Source of the DNA: Pseudomonas azadiae
GTDB lineage: Bacteria > Pseudomonadota > Gammaproteobacteria > Pseudomonadales > Pseudomonadaceae
Direction: 5' to 3'
DNA length: 64,000 nt
Assembly (NCBI RefSeq): GCF_019145355.1
Contig: NZ_JAHSTY010000001.1
Coordinates: forward strand, 62,001-126,000
Shown piece after piece: positions 32,127 to 44,928 of the stretch. The stretch's first letter is position 1; every line of letters begins with the position of its first letter. Under the pieces are notes generated by a model. The model had not been told where the DNA came from. It saw nothing but the letters and a program-made list of their open reading frames with translations, and made no database searches. A program made the translations under genes and the position numbers.

Positions 32127-32765
32127 TCAGAGGTAGATCACTTCCAGCGTCGCGCTGCCATCCAGGGGCACTTCCTGGCCGGCCGGTATCAAGTAAGCCG
32201 GGACCATCGTCGTTTCGATCAAAATATCCAGCGTCATCGCCTCCACGGGCAGCGGCGCGGCGTCGCTACCGGTACTGGCGCTCAGGGCACGCATGCCACC
32301 GACCTGCCAGACCACGCCTGGGTAGGACGCATCCGTCCAACTGGCGCCATCGTTGGACTCAATCACCGGTCGATCCACGCCATCAGCTTGACCGTTAGCC
32401 GTCTTGAGCAGGTACCAGCCGAGTTTTTTGTCACCGTTGACCAGACCCAATCCATAGTTCGGCTGACCGATCGGGTCCGCAGCTGAACTGCCGGCTCGAT
32501 TGTCGCGCCCCTTGATCGCCACCAATGTCGGCGCGTCGCAGTTGACGTTCAGTTGCAAAGTTGCGACAGGTAGCACGTTGTACAGGTTCCAGCTCAGATC
32601 CTTGAAGGATATCTTGCCGTGGTCCACCACTCCGCCCGCCGACAACGTCGGCGTACACGCAGCCGGAATGATCAAGCCCTTAACGCTTAAATCCACGCTG
32701 GACGCCGCCCATACATTAGACGCACCCGCCAATAACAACGCCGCACTGATAATTGAAAGTTTCAT
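32127..32765 (-). CDS. DUF1120 fimbrial-type subunit (paralogue 1, leftward)
   Basis: A 212-aa exported protein: signal peptide (about residues 1-21, ending SNVWAAS), an N-terminal alternating segment SSVDLSVKGLI that would act as donor strand, then the shared core with two Cys (AACTP near residue 37 and NVNCDA near 75), a DNR motif, a YGLGL segment, and the C-terminal signature DGSATLEVIYL. It belongs with the rightward cluster at 34963-44201 but is on the opposite strand, downstream of the RcsB-like gene. Export by the chaperone-usher pair is inferred. Confidence 0.85.
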   Translation of the reverse strand: MKLSIISAALLLAGASNVWAASSVDLSVKGLIIPAACTPTLSAGGVVDHGKISFKDLSWNLYNVLPVATLQLNVNCDAPTLVAIKGRDNRAGSSAADPIGQPNYGLGLVNGDKKLGWYLLKTANGQADGVDRPVIESNDGASWTDASYPGVVWQVGGMRALSASTGSDAAPLPVEAMTLDILIETTMVPAYLIPAGQEVPLDGSATLEVIYL

Positions 32766-32995
32766 GATATTCGCTCGCTAAGAACCTGCACTTTCCAGGC
32801 ACGCGATTGCGTGCCGAAAAGTTCGGCTCGAATAATTGGACAAGGGAAATTGTCACCGCCATTGAATTAACGGCGATCTAGAAACCATAACCAAGCCATT
32901 CGCTCGACCCAATACAACTAATACGAATCCAGTCACTAAAAGGGAACTTACAAATACCGGTACAAACCTGAAACTTGCCTATTGATTAGCGAAAT
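32766..32995. other. AT-rich spacer between paralogue 1 and the regulator
   Basis: About 230 bp, clearly richer in A/T than the coding flanks, and probably the promoter region of the leftward DUF1120 gene. I see no open frame or clear operator. Confidence 0.45.
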
Positions 32996-33643
32996 TCACG
33001 GCACCATTCCCACATCCCGCGCATAAGCAAACAAATCAACATCCGTGGAAATACACAAGCGTTGCATCGCCGTACTTTTCTGCTTGCTGATCGTCGAAAT
33101 ACTGCGATTGACTTGCGCAGCGATCTGGGTGACGGTCATGCCGCTGGCCAACATCCTCACCACCTCCTGCTCCTTGCCCGAAAGCTTCGGTTCCTGGATC
33201 GATTGCGCCGGGTGGGCCTGATCCAGTTGCACGCGCAAACACTCACTGATAAACGTACGGCCCTGCACCACCGTGCGGATGGCCTGGGGCAATTCCAGCG
33301 CCGAGGCGCTTTTGGCCAGCACCGCCTTGGCCCCGTGGGACAGCGCGGCACGCAGGGTGGCGACGTTGGCGAACATGGTCACCATGATCACCGGCAGTTT
33401 CGGGTACTGCCGTTGCAGCAGGCCCAATAAACCGTAGCCGTCGGCTTGCTGGTCACCCGGCATGGCAAAGTCAGTCACAACCACATCGCAGGGCGTGGTC
33501 TGGAGTAAGGCCAGCAGTTGGTCGGGGCCATTGGCCTCGCCTACCACAATGCACTTGCCGCTCGCTTCAATAACTACTTTTTGCCCGACCCGAACAATAG
33601 GGTGGTCGTCGGCAATAATGATGCGGATCATCGGTTTTTCCAT
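32996..33643 (-). CDS. RcsB-like LuxR-type response regulator
   Basis: A 215-aa two-component regulator: receiver domain (acid pair in IIADDHPIVRVG, phospho-acceptor Asp58 in VVVTDFAMPGD, conserved MVTMFAN and AVLAKSAS) and a C-terminal LuxR/GerE HTH (KLSGKEQEVVRMLASGMTVT, VNRSISTISKQKSTAMQRL). The wording SxxTISxQKxxAMxRL and the FAMPGD loop resemble RcsB rather than generic NarL proteins. RcsB-like regulators control the cupD fimbriae of P. aeruginosa, so control of the neighbouring fimbrial locus is a reasonable inference. ATG 33643 (MEKPMIRI) is chosen; 33631 is an alternative. Confidence 0.88.
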   Translation of the reverse strand: MEKPMIRIIIADDHPIVRVGQKVVIEASGKCIVVGEANGPDQLLALLQTTPCDVVVTDFAMPGDQQADGYGLLGLLQRQYPKLPVIMVTMFANVATLRAALSHGAKAVLAKSASALELPQAIRTVVQGRTFISECLRVQLDQAHPAQSIQEPKLSGKEQEVVRMLASGMTVTQIAAQVNRSISTISKQKSTAMQRLCISTDVDLFAYARDVGMVP

Positions 33644-33828
33644 GATGGCAATTAGGTAGCAACAAAAATACCTCGACACTGGCTTTGTAACAACTGGCAA
33701 TAAATGACTTAAATGGCTGCACAGCCCATGTTTCAAGGGCACTACACAGATGCCTACAGAATAAAAAGAAACTACATACAGAAATGGACTACACACAACT
33801 TGGCATTTTCCTTCATTACAACTAACAC

Positions 33829-34641
33829 CTAGAGCGTACGCAAATATTCCAGGTAGCGCTCGATGTCCTGGCAAATACGCTCAAGTGCAGTGCGGTTGGC
33901 AGCCACTCCGGTCTGATGCACCCGATCTATCAACCGCACGGCGCGCTGCTCCAGCGTCGTTGCGCCGAGAAACGCAACACTGCCCACCAGCCGGTGCAGA
34001 TGCTGGGTGGTGGATTTTTCGTCTTCACCGGTTCGGGCGTGCAGGAGCCCGTCCAGGTCCTCATGGGCCCCCTGTATCAATTTGTACAACAATGGCTCCA
34101 CCACTTCCCAGGCGCCGAACGTGGCAATCAAGCTGTCGCGGGTGGCAAAACCCTGCGGGCGTGGCGCCGACGTATTCAGCCCGCGGCCCGGCGCGGGCGT
34201 CGGCATGGGCAGCCAATCGCAGAGCACGTCGCGCAATTGCTCAAGGCCGATGGGTTTGAGCAGCCAGCCGTCCATGCCGCATTCCACACAGCGGCGAATT
34301 TCCTTAGGCCCCACGCGACCGGTCAAAGCAATGACCGGCACACGTGCAAGACCGGCGTCGCGCTCCATGCGCCTCAGCTCACGGGTCATGGCGTAACCAT
34401 CCATCACTGGCATGCGACAGTCGCTGATCACCAGGTCGAAGCGCTCGCGCGCCAGCGCCTGCAGCGCGCTGGGTGCGTCGTTGAACGCCGCATGGCGCAC
34501 GCCCAATGCATCGAGCAGGACGCCCATGAATGATCGGTACAGGGCGTGGTCGTCGATCACCAACACCCGCGCCTGCTGCCAGCTATCCGGCGTGTCTGCA
34601 GTGGAATGGGATGAGTCATCACCCGTAGCGTTGCCCGGCAT
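33829..34641 (-). CDS. Receiver-Hpt phosphorelay protein without a kinase domain
   Basis: A 270-aa protein with a receiver domain (Asp30-Asp31 in VLVIDDHALYRSFM, phospho-acceptor Asp74 in LVISDCRMPVMDGY, Thr/Lys in ALTGRVG and WLLKPIG) joined to a C-terminal Hpt domain with candidate phospho-His216 in LHRLVGSVAFLG. This is the same order as the tail of EvgS/BvgS/RcsC-like hybrid kinases, but no histidine-kinase, HATPase or sensor region is present. ATG 34641 has GAGGGG just upstream; in-frame starts at ATG 34653 and TTG 34731 would add up to 30 residues. It probably feeds phosphate to the adjacent RcsB-like regulator. Confidence 0.85.
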   Translation of the reverse strand: MPGNATGDDSSHSTADTPDSWQQARVLVIDDHALYRSFMGVLLDALGVRHAAFNDAPSALQALARERFDLVISDCRMPVMDGYAMTRELRRMERDAGLARVPVIALTGRVGPKEIRRCVECGMDGWLLKPIGLEQLRDVLCDWLPMPTPAPGRGLNTSAPRPQGFATRDSLIATFGAWEVVEPLLYKLIQGAHEDLDGLLHARTGEDEKSTTQHLHRLVGSVAFLGATTLEQRAVRLIDRVHQTGVAANRTALERICQDIERYLEYLRTL

Positions 34642-34745
34642 GTCGCCCCTCATACGCGCAACAGGTTCCAGATACGCGTTGAGGGCACGGTAGCGTTGGA
34701 GAGTCGCGCACAATAAAAGCGGATCACTCAAACAAATAAAGTGCC

Positions 34746-34817
34746 CGCGCTATTAAAAGAGCGCGAAAAGTAGCTGAATATTTAAGGTGCTGCGATACAA
34801 CAACTACGACAACGTAG
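34746..34817. promoter_or_regulatory. Candidate regulatory palindromes upstream of the fimbrial operon
   Basis: The gap between the divergent receiver-Hpt gene and the first rightward subunit gene is AT-rich. It holds two symmetric words: CGCGCT-N8-AGCGCG (34746-34765) and CTACG-ACAA-CGTAG (34804-34817). Either could bind the RcsB-like regulator. This is an assignment by position only. Confidence 0.35.
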
Positions 34818-34962
34818 ATATTTTCCAATAAACATCCAGCATTTAATTAAGGCAGCCGATGTTCCAGCGCCCGCTGATGAACTTTCGGAATACTTGCATT
34901 CACGCTGTTCGGTTCGGACCTTATCGTTCGGCAGTTATTACACCGCCCTTCGGAGCCCAACC

Positions 34963-35586
34963 TTGAATCCATCATTTCATTTGATGCTCGGCACGCTATT
35001 GCTTGGTGCCGCCAGCAGCGCATTTACAGCGTCCAGCGTCGACCTCAGCGTCAAAGGCTCGATCACCCCAAGCGCCTGTGAACCCAGCCTTTCCGACGGC
35101 GGCATCTACGACCTGGGCAAAATTGCCGCCAGGGACTTGAACAAAGACCAGCCCACCGCGCTCCCCTTCCACCGCCTGCAATTGACCGTGAGCTGTGAAG
35201 CGTCGACGCTGGTGGCACTGGCACCTGGGGACAACCGTCTCGGTTCCAGCTCGGATAGCGCCGCATCCTTTAAATTCGGTCTGGGCCTGATCAACACCCA
35301 CGAAAAGCTCGGCAACTTCTTCTTGAATATCGAGTCGGTCCTGGCCGACGGAGTCGCTGCGCATCCGCTGGGATCGGCCTATTCCAACTGGTCGCCGACA
35401 AGCCTCATGTCCCATCACTTCATCACTGCAGTCACCACCGATAAAACGACGCAGACGCCATCGCCGTACAAGCAAATGACTGCCTACCTGCTGATCTCGC
35501 CGACGGTCGCTCCCGCCGCCACATTGACACTCACCGAGCAAGTGCCCATCGACGGCTCCGTGACTCTCACCCTGCTGTACCTGTAG
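34963..35586 (+). CDS. DUF1120 fimbrial-type subunit (paralogue 2)
   Basis: A 207-aa exported subunit. I place the start at TTG 34963 with GGAG 8 bp upstream; ATG 34981 is the alternative and upstream extensions look random. Signal peptide to about residue 21 (GAASSAFTAS), donor-strand-like SSVDLSVKGSI, core Cys pair (SACEP, TVSCEA), GGIYDLGKIAARDLN, DNRLGSS, FGLGLINTHEKLG, and the end DGSVTLTLLYL. Most similar in wording to paralogues 5 and 8 (37099 and 43581). First gene of the rightward cluster; 187 bp separates it from the next. Confidence 0.85.
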   Translation: MNPSFHLMLGTLLLGAASSAFTASSVDLSVKGSITPSACEPSLSDGGIYDLGKIAARDLNKDQPTALPFHRLQLTVSCEASTLVALAPGDNRLGSSSDSAASFKFGLGLINTHEKLGNFFLNIESVLADGVAAHPLGSAYSNWSPTSLMSHHFITAVTTDKTTQTPSPYKQMTAYLLISPTVAPAATLTLTEQVPIDGSVTLTLLYL

Positions 35587-35773
35587 CGCTAACGCCGGGC
35601 ATCCGTTCGCCGCGCAAAGTCGTATTTGTTGCATTCCCCCTGAACCGTCCCGGCGATAAATTCCCTCCCGCTTTCCCTGAAGCAGCGCGTGCCCCCAAAA
35701 CCCCTAAAACAAGGGCAACTCACCCGCGCCCCCTCTTCTGTCCCTTACACCTTGCACAGGAAGACTTTTACCC

Positions 35774-36409
35774 ATGAAAGCTTCACTCACCGCACTTGCC
35801 GCAGCCTTGCTGATCGCCGCTTGCCCGTTGGCACAGGCTGCCAGCAGCGTTGACCTGGCGGTCACCGGCTCCATCACCCCAAGCGCCTGCACGCCGAGCA
35901 TCAGCAGCAACGGCCTGGTGGACTACGGCAAGATTTCATTCCAGGACCTGCACCCGACGAAGCTGACGTTCCTGCCTAAAACCGTGTTGAAACTGGCTGT
36001 CGATTGCGAGGGCGCGAGCTTGTTCGGGTTGGCGTCCATGGACAATCGCCTGGTGTCTTCAGACAACTCGGTGTTCTACGTGCTGGGGCTGATTGAACCG
36101 AGAAAGTGGATCGGCGCGTATCTCCTGAGTCTGGAAAACATCCTGACAGACGACCCGAGCGCCATTGCGATCCAATCCCGAGATAACGGAGCGGACTGGT
36201 ATCCCTACTCCGTGGGCGAGTACTGGGCAAACAACATCATGACAGCGTTCGGTAGAACGCTTGCTGGCCAGCTGGCACCGACCCCGATAAAGACCGCGTC
36301 CATGGATCTGGTCGTCGAGCCCTACATACATGGCCAAGACATGTTTCCGGTGATGGATGCGGCCATCCCTTTGGACGGCTCGGCCACCCTGGAACTGCGG
36401 TATTTGTAA
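35774..36409 (+). CDS. DUF1120 fimbrial-type subunit (paralogue 3)
   Basis: A 211-aa exported subunit: signal peptide (MKASLTALAAALLIAACPLA, cleavage near AQAAS), SSVDLAVTGSI donor-like strand, Cys pair in SACTP and AVDCEGA, VDYGKISFQDLHP, DNRLVSS, a C-terminal half diverging from the others (YVLGLIEPRKWIGAY), and the DGSATLELRYL end. The cysteine in the signal (LIAAC) is not followed by a convincing lipobox context. A 23-bp gap to the next paralogue suggests one transcript. Confidence 0.85.
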   Translation: MKASLTALAAALLIAACPLAQAASSVDLAVTGSITPSACTPSISSNGLVDYGKISFQDLHPTKLTFLPKTVLKLAVDCEGASLFGLASMDNRLVSSDNSVFYVLGLIEPRKWIGAYLLSLENILTDDPSAIAIQSRDNGADWYPYSVGEYWANNIMTAFGRTLAGQLAPTPIKTASMDLVVEPYIHGQDMFPVMDAAIPLDGSATLELRYL

Positions 36410-36432
36410 CCCCCCCTGCCCCATAAGGATTC

Positions 36433-37062
36433 GTGCCCATGGAGAAAACCACCCGCGCCGCTTTCGCCTTTCTGCTGGCGGCCTGCGCACCTGGCGTATT
36501 CGCAGCCAGCAGCGCCGACCTGAGCGTGACCGGAAGCATCACGCCCAGCTCATGCATACCGACGCTGTCCAACGACGGGGTAATCGATCACGGCAAACTG
36601 ACCGCCAAGGACCTCGGACGGGTCACGCCCACGCTGCTCGACCTGGCTGAAATACAGCTCGAAGTCATTTGCGAAGGCGCAACCGTTTTTACCCTGACGA
36701 CCTTCGATAACCGCGCCGGCACCTCGGCCATCAACCCGGCGCACCACGGCTTGGGCATGATCAATGACGACCAGAAACTGGGCAGCGTCGCGTTTACGCT
36801 CTTCGAACCGGTAGCCGACGCGGTGCCGGTCAAGACCATCGTCTCGCGCAGTGGCGGCGCCCGCTGGGCCGAAAACGCCTATCTGGGGCATGAAGCATTG
36901 ACCTCGTTCGCCGCCGCCGACGGCCCCAATACGCCGATCGCCATTGAGGTACTGAACGCGCGGTTGCGCGCCTTCACCATCATCGTGCCGGCCAGGGACC
37001 TGACGGTGCTGGATGAAGTGCCCATCGACGGTCAGGCCACGCTGCAACTGAAGTATTGGTAA
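36433..37062 (+). CDS. DUF1120 fimbrial-type subunit (paralogue 4)
   Basis: A 209-aa exported subunit: signal peptide (about 1-24, ending PGVFAAS), SSADLSVTGSI strand, Cys pair (SSCIP, EVICEG), VIDHGKLTAKDLGR, DNRAGTS, HGLGMINDDQKLG, and a final DGQATLQLKYW. It is the only paralogue ending YW rather than YL. It lies in tight series with its neighbours (23 bp before, 36 bp after). Confidence 0.85.
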   Translation: MPMEKTTRAAFAFLLAACAPGVFAASSADLSVTGSITPSSCIPTLSNDGVIDHGKLTAKDLGRVTPTLLDLAEIQLEVICEGATVFTLTTFDNRAGTSAINPAHHGLGMINDDQKLGSVAFTLFEPVADAVPVKTIVSRSGGARWAENAYLGHEALTSFAAADGPNTPIAIEVLNARLRAFTIIVPARDLTVLDEVPIDGQATLQLKYW

Positions 37063-37098
37063 TCCATTTTTTTAATCTTCCTCCCTGGGAGCCACACT

Positions 37099-37722
37099 AT
37101 GAACGCCTCTTTGAAAAACCTTTTCGCCGCCGTGCTGCTGTCTGGAGCGGGCAGTGCCATGGCTGCCTCCAGCGTGGATTTGACCGTGACAGGGCTGATC
37201 ACGCCGAGCTCATGCGAGCCGAGCTTGTCCAGCGGCGGCGTGTATGACATGGGCAAGATTTCTGCCAAAGATCTCAATGTCGACATGCCTACCTCATTCC
37301 CCGTAACTACCTTGCAACTGACCGTCACCTGCGATGCAGCGACCTTGATGGCATTGGAGGCCAAGGATAACCGCGAAGGGTCGGACTTCAACAACGACAC
37401 CATGGCGTTCGGGCTAGGCTTGGTCAACGGCAACGAAAAGCTCGGCAGCGTTGAGCTGCGGCTGTTATCGCCGATAGTCGACGGTGCGCCTGCGCGCGCC
37501 ATTGGCTCAACCGACGGTGGGACGGTCTGGGAAAGGGATACAAACTTTATGCGAGGCAACATCCTGTCGGTAGCCGACAACACCACGGATGCGCCGATTC
37601 CAGTGCAAACGCTTACTTCCGAGCTCGCACTCTATCCAAAAATCGCCCCCGCCCGCACCCTGACCCTGACCAACGAAGTCGCCATCGACGGCTCGGTCAC
37701 CTTGACCGTCAAATACCTGTAA
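37099..37722 (+). CDS. DUF1120 fimbrial-type subunit (paralogue 5)
   Basis: A 207-aa exported subunit: signal peptide (MNASLKNLFAAVLLSGAGSA, cleavage near AMAAS), SSVDLTVTGLI strand, Cys pair (SSCEP, TVTCDA), VYDMGKISAKDLNVD, DNREGSD, FGLGLVNGNEKLGS, LTLTNEVAIDGS, and the end TLTVKYL. It is the closest relative of paralogue 8 at 43581, with which it shares SAKDLNVD and EKLGS; the pair brackets the chaperone-usher genes. Confidence 0.85.
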   Translation: MNASLKNLFAAVLLSGAGSAMAASSVDLTVTGLITPSSCEPSLSSGGVYDMGKISAKDLNVDMPTSFPVTTLQLTVTCDAATLMALEAKDNREGSDFNNDTMAFGLGLVNGNEKLGSVELRLLSPIVDGAPARAIGSTDGGTVWERDTNFMRGNILSVADNTTDAPIPVQTLTSELALYPKIAPARTLTLTNEVAIDGSVTLTVKYL

Positions 37723-37797
37723 CGCCCGCGGGCGCAACGTGTGCCGTTGCGCCCGTTCTCATGGATGTCCCCTTAATCACGGTTCCAAAACCCGACC

Positions 37798-38427
37798 ATG
37801 AACACGCTCTCAAGCCGACTGGTGACCCTCTGTTTTTTCTGCCTGGTTGCCGCACCGGCATCCGGCGGCTCCACCGCCGAGGTGACGGTCACCGGCACCA
37901 TCACGCCCAATGCCTGCACGCCGACGCTGTCTGCCAATGGCATCGTCGACCACGGTCGGGTGCCAGCTCGCAGCCTCAATCAATACGAGTTCAGCACGTT
38001 GCCCAGCCGCACCCTCGACCTGACTGTGAGCTGCAACGCATCGGTGCTGTATGTGCTGGTGGGCGTGGACAACCGCGCCGGCTCGTCCCTGGGACCCGGT
38101 TTTTATTACGGACTGGGCACCAATGTGCACGTGCCCACCGAACGGCTGGGCACGGTGTCGCTGGCGTTGCGCGACGTGGTCGGTGACGGCGATAGCGTGT
38201 TGGTGCTGGCCTCCAGCAACGAGGGCCAGACCTGGTTCCCGGAATCGAACGCCTACCCGGACAACTACATGGGCTTCGCCCGACCCGGCACCCTGGTGCC
38301 CGAACCCCATCGCGAGATCACCGCGACCCTGCACATCGAAACGTCCATCAACGCCGCGGCCTACCTGACCCTCGATCAAGAGGTGCCGCTGGACGGTTCG
38401 ATCGTGCTCGACCTGAGGTATCTGTAA
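37798..38427 (+). CDS. DUF1120 fimbrial-type subunit (paralogue 6)
   Basis: A 209-aa exported subunit: signal peptide (about 1-22, FFCLVAAPASGGS), STAEVTVTGTI strand, Cys pair (NACTP, TVSCNA), IVDHGRVPARSLNQ, DNRAGSS, YYGLGTNVHVPTERLG, DQEVPLDGS, and the end IVLDLRYL. It is followed 2 bp later by the chaperone gene, so the subunits and assembly genes form one unit. Confidence 0.85.
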   Translation: MNTLSSRLVTLCFFCLVAAPASGGSTAEVTVTGTITPNACTPTLSANGIVDHGRVPARSLNQYEFSTLPSRTLDLTVSCNASVLYVLVGVDNRAGSSLGPGFYYGLGTNVHVPTERLGTVSLALRDVVGDGDSVLVLASSNEGQTWFPESNAYPDNYMGFARPGTLVPEPHREITATLHIETSINAAAYLTLDQEVPLDGSIVLDLRYL

Positions 38428-38429
38428 CC

Positions 38430-39176
38430 ATGTTCCCTACCCCTTATGCTGCCTTCTTCAGCCGCTTGTTCATCGGCTTTCGCTATTTATGCCTGTACCT
38501 CGGCGCCGTGCTGCTGGTGCTGGGCGGCTCAAGCCTGGCGCTGGCCGACGGCATGGTGCCGGACACCTCGGTGGTGATCGTCAACGAAGCCGACGGCGAA
38601 GCCTCGGTGTCGGTGACCAACACCGACTCCAAACTGGCGCTGCTGCACGTCACCCTCGAAGACATTCCCGAAGACAAGGCTTCGCTGCTGTTCGTCACGC
38701 CGCCGTTGACCCGGGTCGAGCCGTCCAAGAGCCAACTGATCCGCTTCATCATGCAATCGCCGGAACCCTTGGTGACGCAACGCCTGAAACGGGTGATTTT
38801 CGAAGGCATGCCCCAAGGCCGATCCGACGCCCAGGCCGGGCATGCGCGGGTCGGCGTGACCGTGCGCCAGAACCTGCCGGTGATCCTGCATCCCAAAGGA
38901 CTGGCACCGAACCGCACGCCCTGGACCGGCCTGACCTGGAGCCTGAAGAACAGCCAATTGAGCGTGCATAACCCATCACCGTATGTGGTGCGCCTGGCCC
39001 AGGAGCTCAAATTGCTGCCCGGCAACGGCTCCGCCTTGCTGCCGCGCACCTACGTGCTGCCCGGTGAAACCCTGAGCGTGGCCGCCAGCCAGGCCTCGGC
39101 CACCACCGTGCAACTGCAGCCGGCCACCGTCTACGGCTTTGCCGTCGCGCCCTATGAGGCGCCCCTCTCGCTCTGA
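38430..39176 (+). CDS. Periplasmic fimbrial chaperone (PapD-like)
   Basis: A 248-aa chaperone that should hold DUF1120 subunits in the periplasm by donor-strand complementation. A long signal region (about residues 1-39, with hydrophobic CLYLGAVLLVLGG) precedes domain 1. The domain 1 edge strands are TSVVIVNEADGEASVSVTN and RVEPSKSQLIRFIMQ, with GVTVRQNLPVILHP at the G1/linker strand, followed by a domain 2 of reduced size. It belongs to the immunoglobulin-like PapD superfamily; conserved alternating hydrophobics in the G1 strand are visible. It starts 2 bp after paralogue 6. Confidence 0.9.
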   Translation: MFPTPYAAFFSRLFIGFRYLCLYLGAVLLVLGGSSLALADGMVPDTSVVIVNEADGEASVSVTNTDSKLALLHVTLEDIPEDKASLLFVTPPLTRVEPSKSQLIRFIMQSPEPLVTQRLKRVIFEGMPQGRSDAQAGHARVGVTVRQNLPVILHPKGLAPNRTPWTGLTWSLKNSQLSVHNPSPYVVRLAQELKLLPGNGSALLPRTYVLPGETLSVAASQASATTVQLQPATVYGFAVAPYEAPLSL

Positions 39177-39294
39177 TGCCCGCGCTGGAAGGACCCGCAC
39201 CAGCGCTCTGATCAAGCAGTGGCCCCTTGAAGGCCACCCGAAGCCCGCCGCACCGAAGGATCGGCCGCGCGCTTCTCTCATTTGAGTATGACCT

Positions 39295-41742
39295 GTGAGC
39301 ACAGTGATGACTGATCGCGACGGCGCAGCCGCGCCCGGCGTTTCATTAAGGCGGGCGCCTACCTTCGTTGCCGGCCTGGCCCTTGCACTGCTGCCGGCCG
39401 GCCTGTTGCTGGCCGATGAAGGCGGCGGCTCGTTCGACCCGCAGACCCTGTCCCAACGCGGCATTGATCCGGAGCTGGCCAAGCTGTTGTTGCAAGCACC
39501 GCGTTTCACCGCCGGGCGCCACGCCCTCAACCTCAACGTCAACGGTCAGCGGCGCGGCCGCGTGGACGTGACCTTTGATCAACAGGGCACGCTGTGCTTC
39601 GACCGCGCCCTGCTCGATGCAGGCAACCTGAAACTGCCCGACGCGGTGGCCGACACGCCGTGTCTGGGCTTCGTCGAGCGCTACCCGCAAACGGTCATCG
39701 AGCAGGACCCGGCAGACCTGAGTTTGTCCCTGGTGGTACCGACCGACGCCATACGCCCAGCGGTGCAGGACGTTTCCGGCTACCAGACCGGAGGGTTTGC
39801 CGGCCTGCTCAATTACGATCTCACCGGCCTGTACAACGAATACGGCGACGACAGTAACCGCTTCGGCTCGGCGAACACTGAGGTGGGTTTCAACGCCGGT
39901 GATTGGATCGTGCGCAGCCGCCAAGTGCGCACCTGGCAAGACGGCCAGTCGCGCACCACTCACCTGGACGCGTATGCGCAACGCACCTTTGCCGCCCAGC
40001 AGGCGGTATTCCAGGCCGGGCAGATCAACCTCTACAACCCGGTGCTGGCCGGCGCGCAGATCACCGGCGCCCAGGTGCTGACCGAAACCGCGCTGCAAGA
40101 CCAGAACCAGGGCGCGACCATCGACGGCATCGCCAACAGCCCGGCGCAGGTGGAAATTCGCCAGAACGGCACCTTGATTCATTCCACCGTCGTGCCCGCC
40201 GGGCCGTTCTCGCTCACCGACGTGCGACGCTTGAACAGCCGCTCCGACGTCGAAGTCACGGTCAAGGAAACCAGCGGCGAAGAGCGCCGCTTCACCGTGC
40301 CCGCCGCCATGCTCGGCCTGGGCTTGCCGGCGCCGGGTTACTCGGTGGCCGCCGGCCAAGTGCGCAAGATAGGCGACAGCGAAGGCGCCGAGCCCTGGGT
40401 GGTCAGTGCCGGCTGGAGCGGTGCCTTGCACCCGCAGGTGAGCCTGAGCGGCGGCGTGTTGGCGGCCGAGGATTACCGCGCCACGGGCGCCAGCATCGGC
40501 TGGTTGCCGACGCGCGACAGCCAGCTTCAATTCGGCGTGCAAGGCGCCCAGGCCACACGTCGCGGCAATGAACAGGGCCTGCAGACCGACGCCTCTTGGT
40601 CGCAGCGGTTGTCGGACAGTTGGGCGGTCACCACCGCCGCGTCCTGGCGTTCGTTGGGCTACCGCGAACTGGAAGACTCGACGCACACCACCGACACCCG
40701 TGAGCAGCAGCGCTCACGTTATCGCGATCAGCAAAGCGCTACCGCGTCGTGGTCACACCCGGCCCTGGGGGCGTTCAGCGCCGGTGTCTCGCGTTCAGCG
40801 TCGCATACCGGCGACAGCAGCACCCGCGCGCTGGCGTCGTGGGGCACGAGTTTTGGTCGCGTGTCCGTCTCGGCCAGCGCCGAATGGCAGGTGGGCGGGC
40901 GCAAGCAGAGTGACGACAGCGTCTACCTGAACCTCAGCCTGCCCCTGGGCGAAACCCGCCGCGCCCGCGCCTGGACGCGCAATGCCGGCGGCGAGCAGCG
41001 GACCGGGCTGGGCTTGAGCGAGCAGCTCAACGATCAACTGAGCTATCGCGTCGGCGTGGAGCGTGACAGCCGGGACCGTGAAGTGGAGTCGTCGGTGGGC
41101 GTGTCGGCGCTGCCGTATTACAGCCAGTTGGATTTCAACTACACCCGCTCCGACGACCAGCGCGCCAGCTACCAGGGCGGCGCGCGCGGCGGCGTGGTGC
41201 TGCATGGCGACGGCCTGACGTTCTCGCCGTACCCGGTGCGCGACACCTTTGCGGTGATGTCGGTGGGCGAGATGGCCGGCATCAAGGTCAGCACCCCCAG
41301 CGGCCCGGTGTGGACCGACTGGCAAGGCCAGGCCGTGGTGCCGCAACTCAGCGCCTACGGCCGCAGCCCGGTAGAAGTGCAAACCCGCTCGCTGCCGCGC
41401 AATGCCGACATCAGCAACGGCCTGGCGGTGCTGTCGGCCGGGCGCGGCGCGGTGGACAAGGTCGAGTTCGGCGTGGCCCTCACCCGGCGCGCGTTGCTCA
41501 GCGTGACCCGCGAGGACGGCACGCCGTTGCCGCGCGGCGCGGCGGTGAGCACCGGCGACGGCGAGTTCGTCACCCTGGTGCAGGAAGGCAGCCAGGTGTT
41601 CCTGCCCAACGTACTCGACACGCGCGCGCTGTGGGTCAAGGCCGCCGGGCAGGCGCGCTGTCGCCTGGACTTCGAGTTGCCGGAAAAGGGCGACCCCGAG
41701 GTGTATTTCGAAACCGCGGCGGCCCGGTGCCGCCAGCCATGA
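39295..41742 (+). CDS. Outer-membrane fimbrial usher (PapC/FimD family)
   Basis: An 815-aa usher that secretes and assembles chaperone-bound subunits through a 24-strand pore. It has an N-terminal signal-like region, the N-terminal chaperone-binding domain, the pore with the plug region (NSPAQVEIRQNGTLIHSTVV, PAGPFSLTDVRR), and C-terminal domains with a Cys pair (GQARCRLDF and ARCRQP). It starts at GTG 39295 or ATG 39307, 118 bp after the chaperone; that gap looks non-coding. Its stop shares ATGA with the next gene. It is the only usher in the window, so it presumably serves all nine subunits. Confidence 0.92.
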   Translation: MSTVMTDRDGAAAPGVSLRRAPTFVAGLALALLPAGLLLADEGGGSFDPQTLSQRGIDPELAKLLLQAPRFTAGRHALNLNVNGQRRGRVDVTFDQQGTLCFDRALLDAGNLKLPDAVADTPCLGFVERYPQTVIEQDPADLSLSLVVPTDAIRPAVQDVSGYQTGGFAGLLNYDLTGLYNEYGDDSNRFGSANTEVGFNAGDWIVRSRQVRTWQDGQSRTTHLDAYAQRTFAAQQAVFQAGQINLYNPVLAGAQITGAQVLTETALQDQNQGATIDGIANSPAQVEIRQNGTLIHSTVVPAGPFSLTDVRRLNSRSDVEVTVKETSGEERRFTVPAAMLGLGLPAPGYSVAAGQVRKIGDSEGAEPWVVSAGWSGALHPQVSLSGGVLAAEDYRATGASIGWLPTRDSQLQFGVQGAQATRRGNEQGLQTDASWSQRLSDSWAVTTAASWRSLGYRELEDSTHTTDTREQQRSRYRDQQSATASWSHPALGAFSAGVSRSASHTGDSSTRALASWGTSFGRVSVSASAEWQVGGRKQSDDSVYLNLSLPLGETRRARAWTRNAGGEQRTGLGLSEQLNDQLSYRVGVERDSRDREVESSVGVSALPYYSQLDFNYTRSDDQRASYQGGARGGVVLHGDGLTFSPYPVRDTFAVMSVGEMAGIKVSTPSGPVWTDWQGQAVVPQLSAYGRSPVEVQTRSLPRNADISNGLAVLSAGRGAVDKVEFGVALTRRALLSVTREDGTPLPRGAAVSTGDGEFVTLVQEGSQVFLPNVLDTRALWVKAAGQARCRLDFELPEKGDPEVYFETAAARCRQP

Positions 41743-42881
41743 GGATCACTGCCATGGGTTTTAACACTGCACTGCTGCCGCTGGCCCTGCTGCTCAGCGC
41801 CAGCGCCTGGGGCAACGAAGAATGCCAGCTGAACCTGAGCGAATCACGCCTGGACTTCGGCCTGATGAACCGCGCCGTCGCCGTGCAGCCGGCGCCCGAG
41901 CGCCTGTTGGGCGAGCGGCGTATCAGCCTCACCTTGAACTGCCCGCAAGCGCAGGACCTGAGCGTGTTTTACCGGGCCATGGGCGCGGATGCGCAACGGT
42001 ATCGATTCACCGAGCGCGGTACTTATCGCCTGCGCGTCAGCGACGCGGTACTCGATGGCCAGGCCGTCGAGCTGGGCTTGCTGGCCGGCAGCGGCCAGCC
42101 ACCGGTGGCCAGTGCCGCACAACTGGTATGGCGCCCGGAGCACGGGATCGTGCCGTTGCGTGGCGGCGTACCAGTCACCGGGCGCAGCCTGTCGCTGCAA
42201 ATCGACGCCAGTGCCTGGGCAGATGAAGCGGCGGCGCGGGTCAACGATGCGGTGACCTGGGACAGCGCCGGGCTGTTTGATGCCATCCACGCGGGCCGCT
42301 CGCGGGAGCTACGTTTGCAAGCGCGCTTCGCGCCGGCCGCATGCACGCCGCAGCTGTCCAACGGCGGGCATGTGGATTTCGGCAAGCTCTCAGTGCTGGA
42401 CCTGAACCCGAACCTGGACACCGCCCTGCCCGCCCGCTCGCTGGCGGTCAACGTGGCCTGCGATGCACCGACCGCCTTTACCCTGCGCATGCAGGACAAC
42501 CGCCAGGGCTCGGCCACCGGCGGCGCCGATGACACGGCCTACGGCCTGGGGCTGGACGCGCGCCAGCAGAAAATCGGGCGTTACCGGCTGATATTCGACC
42601 CGACGCGCGCCACGGCCGACCGTTTCGCTGCGCTGTATCGCACCGATGCCGCCGCCGTCAGCGGCCCCTGGAGCAGCGCCAGCGCCAGCCCGATTGCCAT
42701 CAGCGGCACACGCGTCATGAGCTTCAGCGCCATGCCCGGCAGCACCGGCGGCCCCGACCCGATCCAGACCCTCAGTGCCACGGCGAACCTCGAGGCGTTT
42801 ATCGCGCCGCTCGGTTCATTGGACCTGGGCAACGAAGTGCGCCTCGACGGCGCCGCCACCCTCGAAATCAACTACCTCTAG
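41739..42881 (+). CDS. Two-domain fimbrial protein: N-terminal adhesin-like domain fused to DUF1120
   Basis: A 380-aa exported protein, nearly twice the length of its neighbours. After the signal peptide (about 1-25, ending SASAWGN) comes an N-terminal domain of about 180 residues with its own Cys pair (EECQLNLSESRLDFGLMNRA, TLNCPQAQ) and no match to the paralogues. A full DUF1120 domain follows (AACTPQLSNGGHVDFGKLSV, NVACDA, MQDNRQGS, YGLGLDARQQKIG, LDGAATLEINYL). This two-domain plan is that of chaperone-usher tip adhesins, with a receptor-binding domain plus pilin domain. ATG 41739 overlaps the usher stop; ATG 41754 with GAGG upstream is an alternative. Ligand unknown. Confidence 0.85.
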   Translation: MRITAMGFNTALLPLALLLSASAWGNEECQLNLSESRLDFGLMNRAVAVQPAPERLLGERRISLTLNCPQAQDLSVFYRAMGADAQRYRFTERGTYRLRVSDAVLDGQAVELGLLAGSGQPPVASAAQLVWRPEHGIVPLRGGVPVTGRSLSLQIDASAWADEAAARVNDAVTWDSAGLFDAIHAGRSRELRLQARFAPAACTPQLSNGGHVDFGKLSVLDLNPNLDTALPARSLAVNVACDAPTAFTLRMQDNRQGSATGGADDTAYGLGLDARQQKIGRYRLIFDPTRATADRFAALYRTDAAAVSGPWSSASASPIAISGTRVMSFSAMPGSTGGPDPIQTLSATANLEAFIAPLGSLDLGNEVRLDGAATLEINYL

Positions 42882-42891
42882 GAGCACGTTC

Positions 42892-43542
42892 ATGAACATC
42901 CTTCGTCTATCGCTGGCCGGCCTTGCCCTCCTGGGAAGCGCCAGCAGCACCCATGCGGCGTCCACCGCCGAATTGACCGTTACCGGCCTCATCACCCCCA
43001 TGGCCTGCACACCGGTGTTCTCGGCGGGCGGCGTGGTGGACTTCGGCAAGATTTCCCAGCAGGACCTCAATGAAACCAAGTCGACGATGCTGCCGCTCAA
43101 GACCATGACCCTGACCGTCAGTTGCAACAGCGCCGGGCGCTACGCCCTGCGCATGCGCGATAACCGCGACGGCACGGCCCACGTCAACAGCGAAATCTTC
43201 TACGGCTTCGGCCTGGATGGCAGCGGCAACAAAATCGGCGTGTATTCGCTCAAATTCGACCCCAAGCAGACCGTGGCCGACAACGCCGCGGTGATCTACG
43301 GCACCGAGTCCACCACCGGCGGCGTGGCCTGGCGCACATCCAACAGCAACCCCATCGACATGGGCGCGCGCAGCCTGCTCGGCTTTACCGAAGCCCTCGG
43401 CAGCACCGCCGGCCCCTCGGCGATCCAGAACCTGACCAGCACCTTCGTTCTTGAAGCGGTGATCAACGCCAAGCAGAACCTGGACCTCAGCCAAGAAGTG
43501 CAGATGGACGGCTCGGCCACGCTGGAAGTGGTTTACCTGTAA
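42892..43542 (+). CDS. DUF1120 fimbrial-type subunit (paralogue 7)
   Basis: A 216-aa exported subunit: signal peptide (MNILRLSLAGLALLGSASST, cleavage near HAAS), STAELTVTGLI strand, Cys pair (MACTP, TVSCNS), VVDFGKISQQDLNETK, MRDNRDG, FYGFGLDGSGNKIGVY, and the end MDGSATLEVVYL. In the second half (KIGVYSLKFDP, GSTAGPSAIQNLTST) it is closest to the DUF1120 domain of the preceding fusion gene, so the two form a subtype. A strong TAGGAG site lies before the ATG. Confidence 0.87.
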   Translation: MNILRLSLAGLALLGSASSTHAASTAELTVTGLITPMACTPVFSAGGVVDFGKISQQDLNETKSTMLPLKTMTLTVSCNSAGRYALRMRDNRDGTAHVNSEIFYGFGLDGSGNKIGVYSLKFDPKQTVADNAAVIYGTESTTGGVAWRTSNSNPIDMGARSLLGFTEALGSTAGPSAIQNLTSTFVLEAVINAKQNLDLSQEVQMDGSATLEVVYL

Positions 43543-43580
43543 TTGACAACCCGACTTTCCCTAGTCAAAGGACCAACACC

Positions 43581-44201
43581 ATGCGCACTACCCTCATCAC
43601 CCTGACCGCCGCACTGCTTGCCGCCGGCAGCAGCGCCGCGTTTGCCGCTTCCAGCGTCGACCTCAGCGTCAAGGGCGTGATTACCCCCAGCGCTTGCACC
43701 CCTGGCCTGTCCAATGGCGGGCTGGCCGATATCGGCAAGCTGTCGGCCAAGGACCTTAACGTTGACCAGCTCACCCGGCTTGAAGAGCTCACCCTGCAAC
43801 TGACCGTGACCTGCGATGGGAGCACGCTGATGGCACTTGAAAGCAGGGACAATCGCCTGGGTTCGGAATACGACAACCGAGGCAACTTCGGCCTCGGGCT
43901 GATCAACGGCACCGAGAAACTCGGTTCCATGGAGCTTGAGTTACTCTCGGCGGTCGCCGACGGTGGACCGGTCAAGATCATCGACTCCTCCGACTCAGGT
44001 GCCCACTGGATTTTCAACTCGTGGCTCATGCACGGCGGTCTCAAGTCGGTAACCAATACCGAAATTGCCGCACCGACACCGGTTCAACTGCTAACGGCCG
44101 ACCTGAGGATCCTCCCCCTCATAGCCCCAACCAACACGCTGACCCTGACCAACGAAGTGCCAATTGACGGTTCGATCACCATGACGGTCTGGTATTTGTA
44201 A
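43581..44201 (+). CDS. DUF1120 fimbrial-type subunit (paralogue 8)
   Basis: A 206-aa exported subunit: signal peptide (MRTTLITLTAALLAAGSSAA then FAAS), SSVDLSVKGVI strand, Cys pair (SACTP, TVTCDG), LADIGKLSAKDLNVDQ, SRDNRLGS, FGLGLINGTEKLGS, LTLTNEVPIDGS, and the end ITMTVWYL. It is close to paralogue 5. It is the last gene of the rightward cluster; the tandem repeat array begins about 20 bp after its stop. Confidence 0.87.
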   Translation: MRTTLITLTAALLAAGSSAAFAASSVDLSVKGVITPSACTPGLSNGGLADIGKLSAKDLNVDQLTRLEELTLQLTVTCDGSTLMALESRDNRLGSEYDNRGNFGLGLINGTEKLGSMELELLSAVADGGPVKIIDSSDSGAHWIFNSWLMHGGLKSVTNTEIAAPTPVQLLTADLRILPLIAPTNTLTLTNEVPIDGSITMTVWYL

Positions 44202-44220
44202 GCCAGACCCTCGACAAGGG

Positions 44221-44914
44221 GCCAGCCGCTATATCGCAAATCCAACCCACACAGCAGCTTCCCTGTGGGAGCTGTCGAGCCCCGGCGAGGCTGCGAAAGC
44301 GCAGTGTCAGGCGAAGTAAATGCCAGCAATGCCGCCGCCTTCGCAGCCTCGCCCGGGCTCGACAGCTCCCACAGTTGAGCTGCGGTGCCGCTGAAAATGG
44401 CGCCAGTCGCCAGACCGCAAATCTAGCTAACACAGCAGCTCCCTGTGGGAGCTCTCGAGCTTTAGCGAGGCAGCGATAGCGCAGTGTCAGGCGAAGCAAG
44501 TGCCAGCAATGCCGCCGCCTTCGCAGCCTCGCCCGGGCTCGACAGCTCCCACAGTTGAACGTCGGCGCTGTTGAGGATGAGGCCAGTCGCCACACCGCAA
44601 ATCTAACTAACACAGCAGCTCCCTGTGGGAGCTCTCGAGCTTTAGCGAGGCAGCGATAGCGCAGTGTCAGGCGAAGCAAGTGCCAGCAATGCCGCCGCCT
44701 TCGCAGCCTCGCCCGGGCTCGACAGCTCCCACAGTTGAACGTCGGCGCTGTTGAGGATGAGGCCAGTCGCCACACCGCAAATCTAACTAACACAGCAGCT
44801 CCCTGTGGGAGCTCTCGAGCTTTAGCGAGGCAGCGATAGCGCAGTGTCAGGCGAAGCAAGTGCCAGCAATGCCGCCGCCTTCGCAGCCTCGCCGGGGCTC
44901 GACAGCTCCCACAT
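44221..44914. repeat. Tandem array: about four copies of a 180-bp unit containing a REP palindrome
   Basis: Period 180 bp. The 120 bp at 44521-44640 recurs unchanged at 44701-44820, and the line at 44461 repeats exactly at 44641 and 44821. Each unit holds an inverted pair (GGGAGCTCTCGAGC to GCTCGACAGCTCCCACA) of the family seen singly at 20116-20225, plus a spacer with CACCGCAAATCTAACTAACA. The first unit is more diverged; the last lacks its tail. The array fills the 727-bp gap between paralogue 8 and the CynX-type gene and codes for nothing believable. Confidence 0.9.
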
Positions 44915-44928
44915 TGAGCGCCGGTGTA

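Follow-up and report, generated by a model that had tools for sequence, protein, structure and literature searches.

What does a bacterium build from nine domains of one pilin family that share a single chaperone and a single usher? The question is raised by a locus of Pseudomonas azadiae (NCBI RefSeq assembly GCF_019145355.1) at positions 32127-44201 of the window, that is, the whole stretch of 64,000 nucleotides that was analysed (contig NZ_JAHSTY010000001.1, positions 62,001 to 126,000 of the forward strand). The locus carries eight stand-alone exported DUF1120 subunits (S1 to S8), one DUF1120 fusion protein (F), one PapD-like chaperone, and one usher. A first-pass annotation had proposed that nine DUF1120 domains are served by this one chaperone and one usher, and the arrangement holds: all nine are in place and score above the 21-bit Pfam threshold (44 to 67 bits, E values of 2e-18 to 2.5e-11). 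We consider it probable that the locus encodes a single chaperone-usher fibre of the beta type, composed of several specialised pilins, with F as its tip.

The comparison set was drawn in part from a genus sample of 149 genomes, loci being chosen among the matches listed. It was compiled from 40 fetched stretches and 14 loci of a named collection, 9 of which were counted (two are fragments and three are repeats). L010, L017, and L019 (repeats of L049, L029, and L037), L021 and L022 (fragments), L053, and L026 (a 12-kilobase piece) were left out of the counts; L053 is a broken DUF1120 locus with its usher and chaperone in pieces. The set comprises 38 fusion-bearing loci and 10 that lack the fusion.

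In a tree of 280 DUF1120 domains, the sequences group according to their position in the locus. The 38 F domains form a single clade (98). Slot clades are also obtained for S6, which adjoins the chaperone (slot u1, 37798-38427, DUF1120 score 44 bits, 32 rows), for S4 (slot u3, 36433-37062, 46 bits, 36 rows, a few of them at shifted positions), for S7 (slot d1, 42889-43542 with an ATG at 42892, 67 bits, 31 rows), and for S1 (the divergent “r” slot, 32127-32765 on the reverse strand, 58 bits, 10 rows from 9 of the 38 loci); here and below, genes are on the forward strand unless stated. The S7 clade joins F at 100, S7 being the nearest kin of F's DUF1120 domain. With a better model applied to 99 domains from 12 loci, F and S6 are again single clades at 100 (12/12 each) and S7 is sister to F. 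Judged from their sequences, the paralogues are specialised, since F, S6, S4, S7, and S1 group by slot across loci; for the clade-forming slots, interchangeable copies were rejected because of the slot-wise grouping in both trees. Conservation also varies from slot to slot. Over the same 66 pairs, mean identity is 84% for S7, 82.5% for the usher, 82% for the chaperone, 79% for S6, 70 to 74% for F, 69% for S4, and 63% for S5; over fewer pairs, it is 56% for S1 (15 pairs) and 52% for S3 (6 pairs). A mosaic fibre and alternative subunits had both been suggested at first; a mosaic of specialised parts appears to fit best.

The explanation that survives best beside this one treats the paralogues as alternative major pilins able to replace one another, a single one being in use at any time so that antigen or ligand varies. 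Up to 13 paralogues are found per locus, and synonymous divergence (dS) also speaks for it at some slots. dS was calculated according to Nei and Gojobori for the 29 of the 38 loci that have the standard layout. Among the eight closest locus pairs, which share no locus, dS exceeds 1.5 times that of the usher five times for S5 (slot u2, 37099-37722, 54 bits), once each for S6, S4, and F, and never for S7 or the chaperone. Over all 114 pairs, which share loci and approach saturation when distant, the corresponding counts are 45 for S5, 38 for S4, 26 for S6, 4 for F, 2 for the chaperone, and 0 for S7, so that the excess at S5 is less exclusive. In one locus pair, the S5 alleles are 40% identical and the flanking slots 86 and 97%. 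Between P. azadiae and L009, dS is 1.98 for S1, 1.14 for S3 (a variable outer slot, 35774-36409, 53 bits), and 0.85 for S8 (an extra downstream slot, 43581-44201, 51 bits), as against 0.45 for the usher. By these measures, divergence is faster at S5 and at the accessory slots than at the conserved ones. Because synonymous divergence is raised, this suggests allele replacement and not merely rapid protein change, most clearly at S5 and the accessory slots, for which interchangeable copies are possible. However, the five slots that form clades, together with an S7 and an S6 about as conserved as the usher, argue against exchange of the whole set, and a simple consensus scan, in itself weak evidence, detected no promoter-like site of any kind. 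Alternative fibres are thus unlikely. The antigenic or ligand diversity initially suggested proves too broad for all eight subunits: S7 and S6 match the usher and chaperone roughly in conservation. It is the S5 slot and, in the one compared pair, S1, S3, and S8 that look exchanged.

Returning to the fibre of specialised pilins, F (41739-42881) is the fusion protein in which a tip domain is followed by a DUF1120 domain (62.9 bits, residues 193-267). The N domain (41739-42300) has no Pfam match at E 0.1. In the donor segment, a Gly is present in 223 of the 224 readable rows of S subunits and is replaced by Ala in all 38 F rows. Where the S rows mostly have Val or Thr, 37 of 38 F rows have Arg, and all 38 have Phe in place of the Ile. 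L026, checked apart, shows the same pattern, with Gly in its four pilins and another residue in its F. Mature F begins about three residues ahead of its first Cys (cleavage site placed by eye), i.e., it has no N-terminal donor strand. Of the 10 loci that lack the fusion, 9 encode a stand-alone relative of the N domain (none was found in L061), and 7 of these 9 relatives start, as placed by eye, within about 10 residues of the first Cys. In L028, an unfused tip protein comes first, and a pilin bearing a signal peptide of its own is encoded separately after it.

The structural model of F folds as a two-domain adhesin (predicted local distance difference test score, pLDDT, 89.1; predicted template modelling score 0.66) and has a strand at residues 162-173. 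Alignment of the N domain extends to residue 174 or 175 when the partner is a completed pilin but stops at residue 160 with FimG minus its last strand; with UclD and UcaD, whose lectin domains are complete, it likewise runs to about residue 177. The tip domain of F may be a pilin completed in cis, and, in the model, the strand that completes it is apparently the former donor strand of F's own DUF1120 domain. The best alignment of the whole model is with CupB6. As in the two-domain tip adhesins CupB6, CfaE, and FimH, two immunoglobulin-like domains extend across the whole of F and the second is a pilin domain. F differs from them in sharing 7 to 14% identity in the matched rows and in having a tip domain with unfused relatives. 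F looks like the tip of the fibre.

Could the additional subunits be mostly redundant duplicates, with no separate roles? The fast divergence of the S1, S3, and S5 slots (52 to 63% mean identity) and the gain and loss of outer slots would agree with this. Against it, the F, S4, S6, and S7 slots stay separate as clades of 38, 36, 32, and 31 rows, and the donor-segment Gly is retained almost throughout, which makes redundancy quite improbable.

The subunits themselves were expected to be chaperone-usher pilins with a donor strand, and computation bears this out. The AlphaFold model of S8 has a mean pLDDT of 92.4, its fold matches are FimG, FimA, CS20, and the pilin domain of PapG, and it shows no fold over its first 14 residues or so, the donor segment (pLDDT about 50 to 68). 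At E values up to 5, the S7 sequence matched no solved structure. A single chaperone and a single usher accompany the subunits in each of the 38 fusion loci. The common motif plan drawn up by the first-pass annotation stands in part. CxP and DNR are present in all nine domains, which are 28 to 57% identical in pairs. (F/Y)GLGL deviates in S3 (YVLGL), S4 (HHGLGM), S6 (YGLGT), and S7 (YGFGL), the terminal DGSxTLxxxYL is variant in S4, S6, S8, and F, and the donor-type segment is changed in S6 and missing from F, where RSRELRLQARF is found. That the subunits are secreted and act singly, with no fibre, would suit the signal peptide seen by inspection on each stand-alone subunit and a fibre that is here a prediction, but it is hardly credible given a fold of pilin type that leaves the donor segment free, the donor-strand pattern, and the chaperone and usher, one of each, that are always found with the subunits.

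To which class does the system belong? The chaperone (38430-39176; PapD_N 69.5 bits, PapD_C 26 bits) has V and P in the columns of the classical FimC anchors R8 and K112, so that it is not of the classical gamma/pi type. In the alignment, it carries R, R, and Y at the columns of EcpB 89, 148, and 169, i.e., non-classical carboxylate anchors. DUF1120 pilins are a hallmark of beta-fimbriae. Among 120 listed homologues of F, one bears the source name “Beta-fimbriae probable major subunit.” According to a passage of PMC4654587, beta-fimbrial chaperones are without the classical anchors and have residues resembling the non-classical ones, and the register shift is missing from them. The Csu and Ecp non-classical pili are thus alike in the Arg, Arg, and Tyr of the chaperone (Arg89, Arg148, and Tyr169 of EcpB), and different in that the pilins of P. 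azadiae are DUF1120 proteins and in the register shift that this passage denies to beta-fimbrial chaperones. A further mark of beta-fimbriae is a Gln at P0 of the chaperone's donor strand; each of the 14 aligned chaperones of DUF1120 loci contains a Gln, in an alignment that does not fix the P0 register. In a tree of ushers that contains neither StjB nor a sure beta reference, a 100/99 branch separates the four classical K-12 ushers FimD, HtrE, YehB, and YbgQ from 17 ushers of DUF1120 loci; EcpC is placed elsewhere, its branch being very long. The P. azadiae usher itself (39295-41742) scores 318 bits for Usher and also matches PapC_C and PapC_N.

Known systems of similar composition exist. The Yhc system of Escherichia coli, presumably a beta-fimbria, and L055, a locus elsewhere in the P. 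azadiae genome, have the simple layout, with a DUF1120 pilin, identical anchor residues in the chaperone, and an usher. In L055, a protein related to F's tip domain is encoded as well, standing alone. In contrast to the present locus, this layout has one pilin instead of eight and no fusion, and no linked regulator was found at L055. For Cronobacter sakazakii, part of PMC7545074 lists a beta-fimbria with seven different “major subunit” genes (ESA_03512, ESA_03513, and ESA_03517 to ESA_03521) and one chaperone (ESA_03516) and one usher (ESA_03515), a likeness at the level of gene lists. The first impression of an undescribed surface system therefore has to be given up: because of the chaperone anchors, the DUF1120 family, and the beta-fimbriae in print, the system is one already described in kind. 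As far as its sequences tell, the locus is a beta-type chaperone-usher system of a known but little-studied kind. Literature searches on beta-fimbriae (with usher/chaperone, Cronobacter, or Pseudomonas) and on DUF1120 found no experimental study of a beta-fimbria, Yhc and Stj not having been searched by name. DUF1120 together with usher returned nothing, DUF1120 alone a paper apparently on cysteine annotation, and PF06551 one apparently on autophagy. For Pseudomonas, the relevant part of PMC9933674 goes no further than listing a subsystem.

Two genes on the reverse strand are part of the fimbrial locus. The first encodes a NarL-type response regulator made up of a receiver and a LuxR helix-turn-helix domain (32996-33643; Pfam Response_reg and GerE; ATG start at 33643 read from the sequence), and the second a receiver-Hpt protein (33829-34731; Response_reg 83 bits, Hpt 31 bits), a piece of a phosphorelay without a kinase domain. 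All 38 fusion loci have a homologue of the NarL-type regulator upstream and on the opposite strand, and 27 of them have the receiver-Hpt protein. Neither is present in 8 of the 10 loci without the fusion; L056 has a weak match to the former and L054 to the latter. Close homologues of the regulator (at least 55% identity) occur in 30 of the 149 genomes, each time beside a DUF1120 gene, the next tier reaching 46% at most. Mere synteny was judged unlikely for this reason, and the upstream response regulator is co-inherited with the DUF1120 locus. Close homologues are lacking in 22 of the 52 DUF1120-bearing genomes, which include genomes having simple loci only. One exception is G007, the genome of L026 and outside the counts, where the fusion is present and the best regulator match (43%) is on another contig, with no close homologue in the genome.

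As regards the order of parts in the fibre, its main pilin, its regulation, and its ligand, we infer the following scheme. The S subunits would be exported and each held by the single chaperone via the non-classical carboxylate anchor (Arg, Arg, Tyr). They would then polymerise at the single usher, with the N-terminal segment ASSVDLxVxGxI serving in donor-strand exchange. F would form the tip, its first domain having no donor strand of its own and being completed, within one protein, by the former donor strand of the DUF1120 domain to which it is fused. S7, the kin of F's pilin domain encoded next to F, is the likely adaptor. S4, S5, and S6 would be common parts of the fibre, with S5 as the best guess for a variable shaft pilin, and S1, S2, S3, and S8 would be accessory pilins that some lineages have gained and others lost. 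The operon is probably switched by the upstream response regulator together with the receiver-Hpt protein.

How widespread are such loci? DUF1120 is present in 52 of the 149 genomes of the genus sample. Fusion loci have 3 to 13 DUF1120 domains, most commonly six (15/38), and at least nine in 8 of 38, totals that are upper bounds for L023 (d1), L034 (d2/d3), and L041 (d1/d2), where extra subunits have split reading frames. Paralogue number next to ushers in other Pseudomonas had been named beforehand as a check; several paralogues are normal there. The named relatives with an usher nearby are all from Pseudomonas. Positive genomes number 5 of 99 in the family sample, each from the genus of P. 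azadiae, and 1 of 370 in the class sample, that of P. azadiae itself; both counts may be low, since the 14 search controls, an E. coli among them, are negative for DUF1120, yet YhcF of strain K-12 scores 161 bits with hmmscan. Plasmid records with DUF1120 genes come from Enterobacter, Pantoea, and Yersinia. Five plasmid records match F, none over more than 80% of its length; four of the matches lie under DUF1120-annotated genes and one under none. On a plasmid of Yersinia hibernica (L069), two DUF1120 genes accompany an usher and a chaperone in swapped order, with mobile-element genes adjoining.

Within the 6.1-Mb genome of P. azadiae, a whole-genome search found three ushers and 10 DUF1120 domains, nine of them in the locus and the tenth in L055, which consists of a pilin, a chaperone, an usher, and a small protein. 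The remaining subunit of the locus, S2 (34963-35586, 50.8 bits), probably starts with the TTG at 34963, as read by eye, and clusters with the extra downstream subunits of relatives. Just 3' of S8, a tandem array (44220-44924) contains 3.9 copies of a 180-base unit; one such unit has 167 matches genome-wide, and the array thus belongs to a dispersed repeat family outside the fimbrial locus.

The locus can be read as a testable parts plan with a tip, an adaptor, conserved slots, variable slots, and a linked regulator. What the analysis adds is the specialisation of paralogues by slot, F as the probable tip, and the co-inherited response regulator. Tentatively, and with somewhat less than an even chance of being right, we propose that F records the origin of a two-domain tip adhesin: a single-domain tip pilin would have been fused to the next pilin, turning the donor-strand joint into a covalent one that works in cis. 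The unfused state would survive in simpler loci such as L028, and slot-specific pilins would be kept around the tip while S5 and the accessory slots exchange alleles. With tip proteins available in both fused and unfused form, the question of how two-domain adhesins arose can be tested directly.
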